NCBI GenBank assembly: GCA_963921795.1
Contig: OY997645.1
Span: forward strand, 16,330,352-16,394,351
Reading direction: 5' to 3'
Length of the DNA stretch: 64,000 nt
From: Nannobrachium achirus
Lineage: Eukaryota > Chordata > Actinopteri > Myctophiformes > Myctophidae
Part shown: one piece after another, positions 27,001 to 59,360 of the stretch
Position numbering within the stretch: position 1 is the stretch's first letter
Layout of the letters: each line of letters starts with the position of its first letter
Made by a program: the position numbers and the translations under genes
Notes under the pieces: generated by a model
The model's database searches: none
Told to the model about the DNA's origin: nothing
Seen by the model: only the letters and a program-made list of their open reading frames with translations

Positions 27001-30000
27001 CCGAGTTGGCCAGGTCGCCGACTAGACGCTGGGCCGCCCGAAGGGACAATTGGATATGCATCCAGCCAGGGTCCTTCCTACGTTAATTCACGCTGTTGAT
27101 AATCAGCAGCTTTTGTAAGCATTGGTAAGAGGTGAGAATGGTTATTCTTGATCGATATGCAAGGTAGACTGACGCACACTCTCACTGGGCACAAGGGGCG
27201 TCACAAGGGGGGGAAAGTGGGACTGAGTTACTAGGGCCCAAGGTGGAGGGAGGGGCCTGGAATTATTTTATAGTTTAGCTATTTTTGAAAAGTTGTGAAA
27301 GTGTGCAAATCTTTGAATATATGTATTTTCTAAGGGAACATTTGTAACTCAAATTTTGCTTCTGGGGGGTCCCTGGAACTAAATATTTTGAGATGGGGGT
27401 CCGTGGCCAAATACATATCAATTTGGGGGTCCTTCCCAAGAAAACGTTTGAGCACCACTGACATAGAAACATCAAAAATAGCAGATCTACTTGTACACCC
27501 CTGCTGGGCAGCTCAAACAAATATATTCAAAGGCTCTGAACTAGTGGGTTGTTTCCACCTCCATTACACAGCAGCTTATATTTGTACGTTATCGCAGTTG
27601 AATTGACACAGATTATTTCTGAGTATTCATGTCATAACAGATGGGCAGAGACAGGAGCTCTGTTTGGTGCTAGACTCTGTGGGACCAGAAGAGCAGAGGA
27701 TGAGAGCGAGTGTCTTGGAAAAATGTTCCTCTTTGATATTTGACTAGCAAATGATATATTTAGTTTACCTAAGTTCAATATCCATGGAAAAACAACAAAA
27801 CATCTGTCGTGACCTGCATTTGCTAGTCAAATTCAAAGCTGAAGAACAATGATTTAATAATGTGTGTGCGTGTGCGTTAACAATACAGCTCACTGTTTAT
27901 GATAATTGATGATGTAAAAATCACGAGCTCATTTCCAGATTGCATTTCTGTTTTGGGAGACAAGCGTCATATGAGTAGAGAATCATTCAACATTTCTTAA
28001 CTACTGTATATTCAAATGAAATATTGGCGACATTCATTATATGCAGACAAATTACGTGTGGTTGTGCTAATGTGTGTGTGTGTGTGTGTGTGTGTGTGTG
28101 TGTGTGTGTGTCTCTGTTTGTCATCAGGTCTAATTATTCAGCTCAGTGAGGAGACTGGAGCCCACCTGTCAGCAGCCCTTCATAACCTTCATTCATCTCT
28201 GTTTACAGGATGCATGAACAGTATGAGCACACGCACGCACGCACGCACGCGCAGTCGCGCACGCACGCGCAGTCGCGCACGCACACACACACGCACGCAC
28301 GCACACGCACTTATGTTATTCATCTGTGTTAAGGTGACGTGGGGAACAAGTGTAAAAGAAAATGCACACAGCAAGAGCCACACCCATGTATACAAAACAT
28401 GCTGCCCACATACACCCAGTGCATAGAGCCACACACACAAACGTGCGCCACACACACACACACACACACACACACACACACACACACACACACACACACA
28501 CACACACACACACACACACACACACACACACACACACACACACACACACACACACACACACACACACACACACACACACACACACACACACACAGGTTTG
28601 CAATTGCTACTTTGTGGGGACATTACACATAGTCTACTATCTTTGTGGGGACATTCATTCATTTTAACCCTAACCCTTAACCTAACCCCTAAACACCTTG
28701 TGGGGACCTATTAATAAGTACCCACAAGGTATTGTGCAAGGATTGTACTATCTTTGTGGGGACATGAGGTCCCCACAAAGTAGTAATTCCCTGTCCACAC
28801 ACACACACACACACACACACACACACACACACACACACACACACACACACACACACACACACACACACACACACACACACACACACACACACACACACAC
28901 ACACACACACACACACACACACAAGAAGAAAGACTTAACCTTTAGTAGGATGTTAAAGGGTCTTGAAAATAATACACAAACACACCACATGCAATATAAA
29001 CTCTAAACAGCAGTTCATGGACTCTCTAATCTACAATAAACCAGCCACCCCTCCCTCCCCCACCTCCGCACACACAAACACACTCCAGACCACTCGCTTA
29101 AGCATACCCCACCCCCAATCCACTCTCGCATCCTGCATCGACACACACACACACACACACGCACACGCACACGCCCCACTTCCTCTCTGTCTGGCTGAGT
29201 GTCTCTCCGTGCTCATCTTGTTGTCTGCCATTATGTTAGAGCTGTGGAGTCTCCTGCTTTATTTAAAACATTTTGTATTCCTGTGTGATTTCACCAGGGA
29301 AAGCTGTCTGAGCATGGTTGCCGTTTTAATCGTAGCAGCCTGGTTCACATCCATAGAGCTGCAGCCACAGTTCAGAACAACCATAGTCCTCTACCATAGT
29401 ACAACCATAGTCCTCAGCCGATCTACAAGCACGTGCTTGTAGATCTGCTGTTTTCACTAATGTTGTGCGACAGCCTTGTATGATGAAGCAGGGCTTTACT
29501 TTGCTAAGAAACATACAAATTTGAAACTTGGAGATACAAGGTTTCTTCCCGACAGTGACGATATTTACACCCCTGTATTATGTTGGTGTGCCCATGGATT
29601 CTTGGGACATGAAAAGTGTGCCCATGCAGAAAAGAGGTTGAGAAACACTGCTCTATCTACTACTGCCTCCTCTTGATCCCCATCATCTCTTTTCTGGAGG
29701 ATGCTATAACCAATCTATAGCATCCCTTTTCTGTGGAGAACATTCACATTACTATCCCTCCTAGCCTCGTTCATGGGAAATGTAGTCGTTGGGTTTTGTT
29801 TGACTCGTTTCTAGCGTTTATTGTGTTACTCTTTGGATAGATTTGTACATTTTCACATTTAGTCGATCCGTATGAGGAAAATCTCCAGGGTGGTTTGTTT
29901 ATTTTTGGAACACAGTTCTTATGGGAGGATTTAAAACTCCCCAATGGGGATTGCCCCGATCCATGCCAAATCACCCTTCAATTCTCACATGACCCTCTTC

Positions 30001-33000
30001 TAGTGCCACCATGAGGCCGATTCTTGCAAAACACAATTATGGGCACTGCTCCTACAATTTTTGCCCTAAAATCACACAAACCGGTACACCAGGGGTCTTC
30101 AACAGGGGGTCCGCGACCCCTAGGGGGTCCGCGGAGGTACTGCAGGGGGTCCGCGAAATTATTGGTTAAAAAAAAAAAAAAAATCAAATTTATGTTAAAA
30201 AATAAATCATGATTCTATCCATTTTGAATAGCTTGAATACATGATTACTATGCAATTGACAGATTGTTGATATTATTGACATTGGTTCTCAGTTAATAAG
30301 TAGTATGTTTAGAAATGGTAATGGTACGGCCCACCCTGCTCGCTGTAACTTGTACATGTTTGAAATAAAAAATATATCGTAGCCCCGACCCCCCCACCCT
30401 ACGAGGTGGTAGGGGGTCCCTGCTCCATCTCCCCATCAGTTTGGGGGTCCCCGGCCTGAAAACGTTGAAGACCCCTGCGGTACACAGTATATCTACACTC
30501 ATGTCATCAACATGGATCTGTCCCATTTAGCGCCACCTTCAGGCCGATTTTTTTAAACACATTTTTGGACACTGCTCCTACAGATTTTGCCCTAAAATCA
30601 CACAAATCGGTACACAGTATGTCTACACTCATGTCATCAACATGGATCTGTCCCATTTAGCGCCACCTTCTGGACAATTTTTTAAAACACATTTATTTTT
30701 GGACACTGCTCCTACAGATTTTGCCCGAAAATCACGCAAATCGGTACACAGTATGTCTACACTCATATCATCAACATGGATCTGTCTCATATAGCGCCAC
30801 CATCAGGCCGATTTTATTCAAACACATTTTTGGACACTGCTCCTACACATTTAGCCCTAAAATCACGCTGCGACCTGGCGGTCGCTTATCTCCCGATTAG
30901 GGAGTCTTACTGGTTTAGATATAAAAAGATAAGTGAGTGAGTGTGTGTGTGCGTGCGTGCGTGTGTGTGTGTTGAGTCAAAACATTTTGAAAAAAGGGCT
31001 TGATTAGTTAAGTGCCTTGCTCAAGGGCATTTGGACATTACAATAGCTACTGAGGAGGAAAGACGATTTCTTATTCACTTTCACCAAATAACATCAGCTT
31101 GTAAAGGGATAGGAACCGGTTCTCAACCGCCTCTTTCTAACCTCTTGGTGACTGACGGTACAATTGAAAACATAATAATGTAGCTGTGTGTGTGTGTGTG
31201 TGTGTGTGTGTGTGTGTGTGTGTGTGTGTGTGTGTGTGTGTGTGTGTGTGTGTGGGGTACCTGATGGCCACATCGGTCTCAAATCCTGTCACGTTCATCT
31301 GCACAGCTCGCTGGAAAGACAGGAGAGTGTTCTCTGGAGCAAGCTGGACAAACAAAAATGGTTGTAAGTAATATTGAATTTTCCACTGTGACAACATGCA
31401 GGGGAACTGGTTTGAACACAGATCTAACAGCAATATGTCCTTCCTTGTTAGCGATCAAGCGAGACTTTCAAAACATGTTTGGGTCATTTCATCGTCTACT
31501 CAGGCTGTTGTGAGCGCCCCAGACAGTTTTTATGTGGCTTGATTCAGTATTTAGATATTTGATATTCATTTTAACAGACACGCCACGCCCACTTCCTACA
31601 AACCCATTGTAACTTCAAACTCCATCCATCTGGTGACTGTCATACTGCCCTCCTAATGTGAGAGGGCCATGTTTTTTGTTTTTAATAGTTTTTATTGTCC
31701 CCCAAAAAGAAAAAAAGTAATTGAAAAAAAAAAAAAAACACACAGCCCCCTCACGTATTAGGAGGGCAGTATGAGTCACCAGAACCAAAGACGGGTGTTT
31801 TCGATGAATCTATCATGGTTAAAATTGAGTTTGAAGTTACAATGGGTTTGTATAGGAAGTGATGAAATGAATATCAAATATCTAGATAATGAATCAAGCA
31901 ACTTAAAAACTAGTAGACGATAAAAATTACTAAAAAAAATTATGAAAGTGAAATGTCCTTTAAGAGAATATATTGTTGCTCTTTAATCTTTTGCACAAAT
32001 TACATTTACATATTTTATTTTATTTGGATTTTTCCATTTCCTGAAAAGCAAGGTCTTTGGACATACAGTATATTGTTTCCGCCCGACAGCAACAACATAT
32101 TGGTTATGCCTCACACAGTGATCTGCAGTGTCAGTTTCACAGACCTCAGCAGGCTGCATTAAGTGCCTGCTCTCCAGGGGAACGTGATGAAATTAACGTC
32201 ATGATATGGCATTACCACATGAAAGGCTCTTCAACTCTTCAAGTCAAGGTTATGATCCAAATATATCAAACCAAGGCAAACAAATTCCCTCAGTCCCAAA
32301 GCATCCTCCTTTTTCCCATAGGACCTGACGTCATCACTGACAGCAGAGGTGAAAGTGTTTACTGGGAGGGGGTGCAGTGGCATGGCAATCAATGCAATGC
32401 TTCTGGGAAATGGAGTCCAAGTCATGTGATTTCTCCATTGGGTTCTTGGGGGGGTGGGGGAGGAGGAGGAGGAGGAGGGAGGGGTCTCATAGCCTTGCAG
32501 AGCCACACCTAATTTTAGACACCGGTAGGTCGATCCATCACATCTGTCAACTAAATGGAAAGTGCCTGTGTGTGTATGCGCATGTGTATGTGTACATACA
32601 GTATGTGTGTGTTTGCCTGCGTGCATGCGTGTGTGCGTGTGTGTGTGTGTGTGTGTGTGTGTGTGTGTGTGTGTGTGTGTGTGTGTGTGTGTGTGTGTGT
32701 GTGTGCGTGTGTGTATGTGTGTCAGTTCACTCCCAGTTCTTTCCCAATAGTTACGTAATAATGAGTGGCATGCTCTGCCAAATGCCATTAATCCTTCACA
32801 AGGTAACATTTATGAATAGAGTAAAATGAAACTGGATTAATAAATCAGCACAGCAACGTGTACAGCACACACCAACCACATGCCTTTCAACGGCTCTCCT
32901 ATAGCATATTTGACTCTCAATACAGGCATGCCAACTTCTTCTATGCGTTGGTAAACAAAGAGTGAAATAGTTGACTAATTAAAAATTCCTTGAAAAGAAA

Positions 33001-59039: not shown

Positions 59040-59360
59040 AACTTAGCCATGATTAAACCTTGCACACCTCATGCATGGGAAAAAAACAGAGAAGAATGAG
59101 CTCTAAAAAATCCAATGCAATCCTGGATTGCATTTTTGTGGGTTTGTGCAGTTTGTTCACAGCTTTCAAACAAAAAAATCCGATTGGAAATCCGTTCAGG
59201 CATTCTTGAGATAATAGCCATTATGTTTTACACTGTTGTGAGCTTGGAGGTCTGCTACCTGAGTTGTATGGGGGTTGTATGGGGGTTAAACATGCAAAAT
59301 CGCGATTGAAATCATGTTCACTAGTTTTGATGGGGTCCAAAAAAAAAAAATCTAAAAATT
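59040..59360 (+). repeat. Dispersed repeat also found at 18590-18930
   Basis: Shared TTCACAGCTTTCAAACAAAA, GGAAATCCGTTCAGGCATTC, GCCATTATGTTTT and GGGGGTTAAACATGCAA. Here, but not at 18800, a single arm of the palindromic module (59231-59257) sits after CATTATGTTTT. Confidence 0.7.

Follow-up and report, generated by a model that had tools for sequence, protein, structure and literature searches.

A palindromic module recurs in a stretch of 64,000 nucleotides from the fish Nannobrachium achirus (contig OY997645.1, positions 16,330,352 to 16,394,351; hereafter the window), and in the rest of the genome it is abundant as well. We consider it probable that this module of about 71 bp is a core domain in the form of a hairpin, common to a number of families of short, non-autonomous DNA transposons, and that it does not move by itself but is amplified by its carriers. 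It rides in TTAA-flanked miniature inverted-repeat transposable elements (MITEs) and in hAT elements, some of them nested, and would be copied upon each transposition of a carrier. For the first entry of the module into each family we infer, as the main route of spread, that a MITE with the module inside it inserted into another transposon, which later amplified. The matched arms within a family, which differ from those of other families, might go back to a palindrome rebuilt from one arm by fold-back (snap-back) DNA copying when the family was founded. In ordinary copies the module behaves as unstable DNA that suffers deletion, loss of the center and tandem duplication and carries the tip in either orientation.

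The recurrence had been noticed in an earlier reading of the window without database searches (the sequence-only reading), which took the module to move or to be gained independently inside unrelated transposons. The observation is real and is confirmed here, and that one palindromic module recurs in unrelated transposon families is borne out by hAT and TTAA hosts; the interpretation as a whole is partly supported. Among the 21 sites listed there, 17 have the arm at no more than four mismatches, and the other four (36575, 39264, 48564, and 50101) are by reading centre-deleted or worn copies. Two further weak arm sites, at 16374 and 19549, were absent from that list.

Structure and abundance of the module

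The common unit consists of an arm of 17 bases (AGATCTACAAGCTCACA), a center of 21 nt and the reverse complement of the arm, with a start-to-start arm spacing of 38 bases in 31 of the 49 two-armed copies of our first sample. Adding AAAATAGC/GCTATTTT outside the arms gives a unit of 71 bp, which is predicted to form a hairpin with up to 34 pairs. Eight folds were computed, one locus being folded on both strands; six of them lie between −54 and −62 kcal/mol (z −13 to −17), and weaker folds were obtained for the copies at 52116 (−45.8 kcal/mol) and 40775 (−17.6 kcal/mol). Strong hairpins of the size of microRNA precursors (pre-miRNAs), as anticipated by the sequence-only reading, are thus predicted, a stable hairpin of suitable size being found in six of the eight folds. 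One could suppose that the module is transcribed into pre-miRNA-like molecules and that their function maintains the hairpins. The strong predicted hairpins of 34 bp would suit such a role, but no Rfam match at gathering score was found in window positions 29000–60000 and the decay of the arms within one large family (family A, see below) shows no slowing, so that we regard this explanation as very improbable.

Besides the complete unit, the module occurs as tandem arm arrays, as centre-deleted copies and with tips in both orientations. Arrays with periods near 43 and 45 bp were seen at L010:6447-6592, L011:6826-6965, and G000:C1:3708064-3708260, and it is possible that they represent the start of satellites. 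In 28 rows of family F3, the 3-base tip of the hairpin reads AAC in 17, GTT in 9 and otherwise in 2, hence both orientations are present. The idea that the spacer flips by inversion of the whole module was dropped; in these rows the orientation of the spacer is unlinked to the first base of the arm, and whole-module inversion is therefore not claimed.

Within the window, 22 matches to the arm were found at three or fewer mismatches, compared to a mean of 0.17 in 100 shuffled versions (largest 2). A genome-wide search for the arm covered 1.66 Gb in 564 contigs and yielded hundreds of thousands of arms: the exact arm occurs 83,473 times (42,077 + 41,396; reversed-pattern control 0), and at two or fewer mismatches there are 673,916 occurrences (337,126 + 336,790), with 158 (82 + 76) for the reversed control. 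Exact arms paired at a distance of 10–35 bp exist at 2,713 places (control 0). From the genome mean, about 26 arms at two or fewer mismatches would be predicted per 64 kb, whereas the window contains 17; the window, including its gdpd5 introns, is therefore not enriched. A short domain common to different transposon families is seen here on a strikingly large scale, a single vertebrate-like genome containing roughly two thirds of a million arms, which reside in transposons with no fewer than two kinds of target site. A 21-base piece of it had no exact match in viral or prokaryote contig collections.

A less selective view of its usual state is offered by 15 loci of 10 kb each (150 kb in total), which were chosen solely by round coordinates. 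They contain 101 arms at three or fewer mismatches, which form 32 two-armed and 37 single sites, and a remnant of the other arm lies beside 13 of these 37 single sites (random stretches: 270 of 3000). The remainder of our 282-kb sample was partly selected around exact matches, and its density was therefore left unused.

Carrier transposons and nesting

The hAT MITEs are short elements with end repeats and 8-bp duplications. The hAT-type hosts share these properties, the module being a part of such MITEs and not a MITE itself. Host ends accompanied by 8-bp duplications characterize the families F2 (CAGGGGTCTTC), F3 (CAGTGGTTCTC), F4 (CAGGGGTTTTC), F5 (TAGGGATGGG), F24 (TAGGGCTGTCA), and A (CAGTGTTGTT), where all family names (F1–F6, F24, and A) are our own. 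For the hAT end of an F1 host (CAGGGGCGTC) a duplication was seen at L067 only, and no duplication was demonstrated for F6 with its CAGTGGTTCCC ends. In total, an 8-bp duplication together with matching CAG/TAG..CTG/CTA ends was found for seven end types, at the loci L002, L005, L012:7288, L016:7908, L021:6155, L024:505, L024:6039, L024:8842, L044, L048, and L067; the duplication contains one mismatch at L005, L024:505, L044, and L067. The repeat at L051 measures 9 bp with a mismatch and was excluded.

The second type of carrier is exemplified in the window itself by a TTAA-flanked MITE at 35292..35506 with the ends CCCATTTAGG.., which surrounds a two-armed module of 71 bp (35376..35446; arm match, predicted fold −57.7 kcal/mol). 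A copy of this element, 95.8% identical, lies at 42552-42765, and the match stops exactly at the TTAAs of the first copy; it contains a two-armed module of the same family (42635..42705; arm match, self-alignment, and fold). Elsewhere, TTAA followed by CCACTTGAAC ends was identified at L029, L042, and L050 and, with 2–3 mismatches, at L012:7288, L013:7594, and L013:9133. The latter three all reside in F2 copies and may therefore trace to one insertion. TTAA at both ends combined with matching ends is thus found at L029, L042, L050, window 35292-35506, and the F2 cores.

These F2 cores are also a case of nesting, with the CCACTTGAAC element inserted in the hAT MITE F2, and much of the same element occurs at L026:4460 without F2 ends. 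Moreover, among 95 modules one cluster of module flanks is combined with either of two opposite flanks, that of F2 (10 copies) or that of F5 (7 copies). This shared flank, and the change of partners seen in the flanks of F1 copies a few bases past the module, would be expected if the module were a recombination hot spot through which families keep swapping halves. Such swapping was rejected for the pair F1 and F2, the sole combination examined: a chimera of F1-left and F2-right has no exact occurrence in the genome, as opposed to 6,358 intact F1 copies. We thus consider a hot spot highly unlikely as the general explanation.

Descent of a hAT MITE from a longer hAT element can be followed in F5. 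A 3.6-kb hAT-type element in the window (54957..58603; TAGGGATGGGACG..CCCTA, 8-bp duplication GAAGATAC) has a single exact arm within its right end (58461..58477, minus strand), and both ends of this element are matched by two F5 MITEs of L024, which carry its right-end module. Between representatives of the families, 5 of 180 flank pairs align at z >6, two of these among F1 forms. In two of the remaining pairs, related hAT ends begin at differing distances from the module (F3 60 bp vs. F6 8 bp, and F5 4 bp vs. F24 31 bp, each distance being measured from a point 9 bp beyond the arm, the F5/F24 likeness being weaker with a second F5 copy), which points to separate entries or to later insertions and deletions.

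Matched arms, module edges, and loss

How similar the two arms of a module are kept was studied in 36 modules of equal length, hand-picked from 56 to thin close relatives. Seventeen of the 34 pairs are altered on both sides, compared to 9.9 ± 2.0 in shuffles (none of 500 reached 17) and 4–13 in slid structures, and there are 60 double-change cells vs. 12–21 in the slid versions. The chief changing pairs are located in the tip (columns 26/46, 30/42, 31/41, and 33/39). Ordinary copies show no arm-to-arm correction: among 54 distinct modules examined, 16 have the F1 variant, and in 15 of these it is confined to a single arm. In family A (67 rows were typed, of which 64 were in register), mean identity is 0.960 for the arm without its first base, 0.969 for the neighboring AAAATAGC and 0.785 for the tip. 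As correction between arms is lacking and the arm is no more conserved than AAAATAGC, the matched arms seem to have been set when each family was founded. Fold-back copying fits arms matched at founding, and selection on the hairpin of the founder fits as well. In addition, the palindrome extends at least five bases past AAAATAGC in 24% of 93 copies (7% with permuted flanks), and these extensions are specific to families, for example GCTG..CAGC in A, TTGTG..CACAA in F3, and ACTAGTG..CACTAGT in F4.

Fold-back copying could also play a larger part than that assigned to it here. The module may be a selfish hairpin seed, in which case a lone arm in any transposon would be restored by such copying during replication to a perfect palindrome with some host-specific bases in it, and the module would renew itself in one host after another with no need of a dedicated transposase. 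The traces left by such a process would be arms that change in pairs from family to family, palindromes that extend into host-specific sequence, and copies with a single arm; nevertheless, we judge it unlikely. Somewhat less probable still is that all hosts descend from one old palindromic MITE whose center was kept by selection and whose ends and flanks diverged beyond recognition. The paired changes agree with this scenario too, as do short sequences that border the module and resemble one another in several families, and the likeness of the arms across families, although the latter is partly built in because copies were found by their arm. A single ancestor is difficult to reconcile with hosts whose hAT and TTAA ends are plainly distinct, one host lying nested within another, and the family-A arm is no better conserved than AAAATAGC, as noted above.

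If, conversely, the module moved alone, its own ends should be marked by target duplications, and the sequence-only reading had suggested a search for these. No general duplication exists at the module edges: direct repeats of at least 6 bp are found near the edge in 12 of 93 two-armed copies, where permuted flanks give 5.3, and several of the 12 come from one family or array. That reading had also taken presence and absence of the module between matching copies as a sign of movement. One such pair consisted of a dispersed repeat near 59231, which contains a single arm (59237..59253, minus strand), and its other copy at 18734-18924. However, the latter has a different sequence of nearly equal length in place of the arm and is therefore not an empty site. 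The replacement, at window positions 18823-18843, is another palindrome, perfect and with 10-bp arms (CAAACATGGC-T-GCCATGTTTG). The left terminal inverted repeat of the 3.6-kb element had likewise been regarded as the empty counterpart of the right one, but when the window was compared with itself by blastn, the left end gave no match to the arm-bearing stretch of the right end, and there is therefore no left copy to call empty.

Sites without the module were obtained by a genome search for two host flanks with 0–30 bases between them (short sites; families A, F3, F5, and F6), filled sites being the same flanks at module-sized spacing (A, F3, and F5). Short and filled sites number 20 and 867 in family A, 80 and 837 in F3, and 41 and 664 in F5; F6 has 7 short sites. 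Many short sites retain pieces of the stem and differ from one another, and a clean junction is missing in 18 of the 20 family-A and in 31 of the 41 F5 sites. The 80 F3 sites comprise 69 distinct alleles; 31 are clean deletions when compared with one reference, and the other 49 have base changes or extra bases. At these 31 deletions, microhomology amounts to 0 bp (4 sites), 1 bp (10), 2 bp (7), 3 bp (2), or 5 bp (8); it is thus at least 1 bp in 27 of 31, and random breakpoints would give at least 1 bp in 44% and at least 5 bp in 1.7%. Deletion of the module within families is frequent, and copies without it appear usually to have lost it in this way. With a near-identical unit, and with filled sites in the hundreds and deleted ones in the dozens per family, the genome provides a natural experiment on how a palindrome with a 34-bp stem comes to be lost, shortened, inverted, or copied in tandem in the germ lines of animals, and the same material bears on whether palindromes get rebuilt from one arm.

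Several observations weigh against a core domain that is carried and rebuilt as proposed. The first sample comprises 112 module sites, of which 33 have flanks that resemble those of no other sampled site; among these 33 are two tandem neighbors that the script left separate. An automatic search for duplications gave results near background, with 20 of 128 module sites vs. 23 of 256 random sites; as this blind search is weak, we base the assignment of carriers on the named loci. The TTAA test overall was positive at 6 of 128 module sites vs. 15 of 500 controls, and on these numbers we rejected the general notion that every host is a TTAA element. For F3, F4, F6, F24, and A, a smaller element that carries the module was not delimited; nested entry is therefore seen only in F2 and, via the shared half, in F5. 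The control for paired changes leaves some relatedness, and snap-back copying is not directly observed in any of the data used here. Furthermore, the eight F3 deletions with 5-bp microhomology are one identical allele and may therefore represent a single deletion that was subsequently copied. Finally, 10 of the 41 F5 short sites share one identical clean junction between 7-bp repeats (ACATTTG), and 2 of the 20 in family A are clean at the 7-bp repeats ACACTTG/ACACCTG. A palindrome of 93 bp with a 7-bp duplication would give such junctions.

The comparison of filled and empty sites that the sequence-only reading had called for shows mostly ragged sites in families A, F3, and F5 next to this minority of clean ones. 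The clean sites speak for a module that is itself a mobile palindrome of approximately 75–93 bp and inserts into transposons with a target duplication of about 7 bp. The excess of edge repeats over permuted flanks and the differing distances to related hAT ends would be compatible with it. On the other hand, most short sites are ragged, several of the edge repeats stem from one family or array, and direct repeats that flank a palindrome also serve slippage deletion, so that the 7-bp repeats in the two families can be explained by deletion too. In a tree of eight distinct loci (support 0.35–0.80), L073 and L074, the two clean sites of family A, which are 92% identical in the compared flanks, each group with different other copies and do not form a separate lineage. 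On the basis of the edge-repeat test, the searches for unfilled sites in four families, and this tree, movement of the module alone was rejected as our explanation, and we rate it as rather unlikely. A core domain amplified by its carriers remains the reading that we prefer.

Related systems and further copies in the window

Among the literature examined, the nearest printed case is found in nematodes. Zhi et al. (2006; PMC1431705) treat repeats as mosaics of shared domains, and in their analysis short stretches of PALTTAA2/piggyBac, which comprise six graph edges and 71 bp altogether, are common to 2 repeat families of C. elegans and 16 of C. briggsae. Like the module, these stretches are spread across repeat families; judged by description only, they differ in being assigned to PALTTAA2/piggyBac, while the module also resides in hAT hosts, and the coincidence of 71 bp is due to chance. 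For Angel, a zebrafish MITE, fold-back DNA copying was proposed (Izsvak et al., 1999, as described in PMC12628747). It resembles the module as a short inverted-repeat element of fish with such a proposal, but Angel, again compared by description only, is a whole element, and the module forms an internal core that lacks ends of its own. The same source describes internal repeats in the Xenopus MITEs miDNA4 and Xstir and proposes microhomology-linked changes for miDNA4 (PMC12628747). These units also are repeated within MITEs and have tandem copies; however, they form tandem arrays, whereas the module is a hairpin mostly found outside arrays. A full-text search of 5.39 million open papers for six forms of the arm, near variants included, gave no match, and the module may possess a name in a repeat database.

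Further two-armed copies in the window, recognized by arm match unless stated otherwise, are located at 52116..52186 (also by its fold), 42809..42872 (center shortened), 45085..45159 (second arm diverged), and 40775..40845, a diverged copy with the weakest of the folds given above. The center is deleted at 42210..42254 (arm match and reading), 29415..29450 (family F4; self-alignment and reading), 36573..36619 (in the same host family as the copy at 29415; self-alignment and reading), and 50101..50136 (reading), and another diverged two-armed copy lies at 35162..35212 (arm match and reading). Single arms identified by arm match are present on the minus strand at 6263..6279 and, with 4 mismatches, at 34048..34064, and on the plus strand at 42001..42017 and 52477..52493. 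By reading, an arm with a one-base insertion was recognized at 39269..39285 (minus strand) and a worn arm at 48578..48592 (plus strand). The plus-strand arm at 34234..34250 lies 24 bp from a hAT-like end (GTTTGAGAACCACTG, 34275-34289), and the minus-strand arm at 44447..44463 belongs to an F2 hAT MITE that ends near 44721.

Three open reading frames of the 3.6-kb element were scanned and had no Pfam match. Within the element, inner inverted repeats that are 84% identical occupy window positions 55122-55393 and 58022-58323, and an open frame of 237 residues on the minus strand (55869-56582), without a Pfam match, is possibly captured host sequence. Outside the transposons, a putative GDPD-family exon was detected on the minus strand near 31283 (PF03009, E 0.0007, below the curated cut-off).

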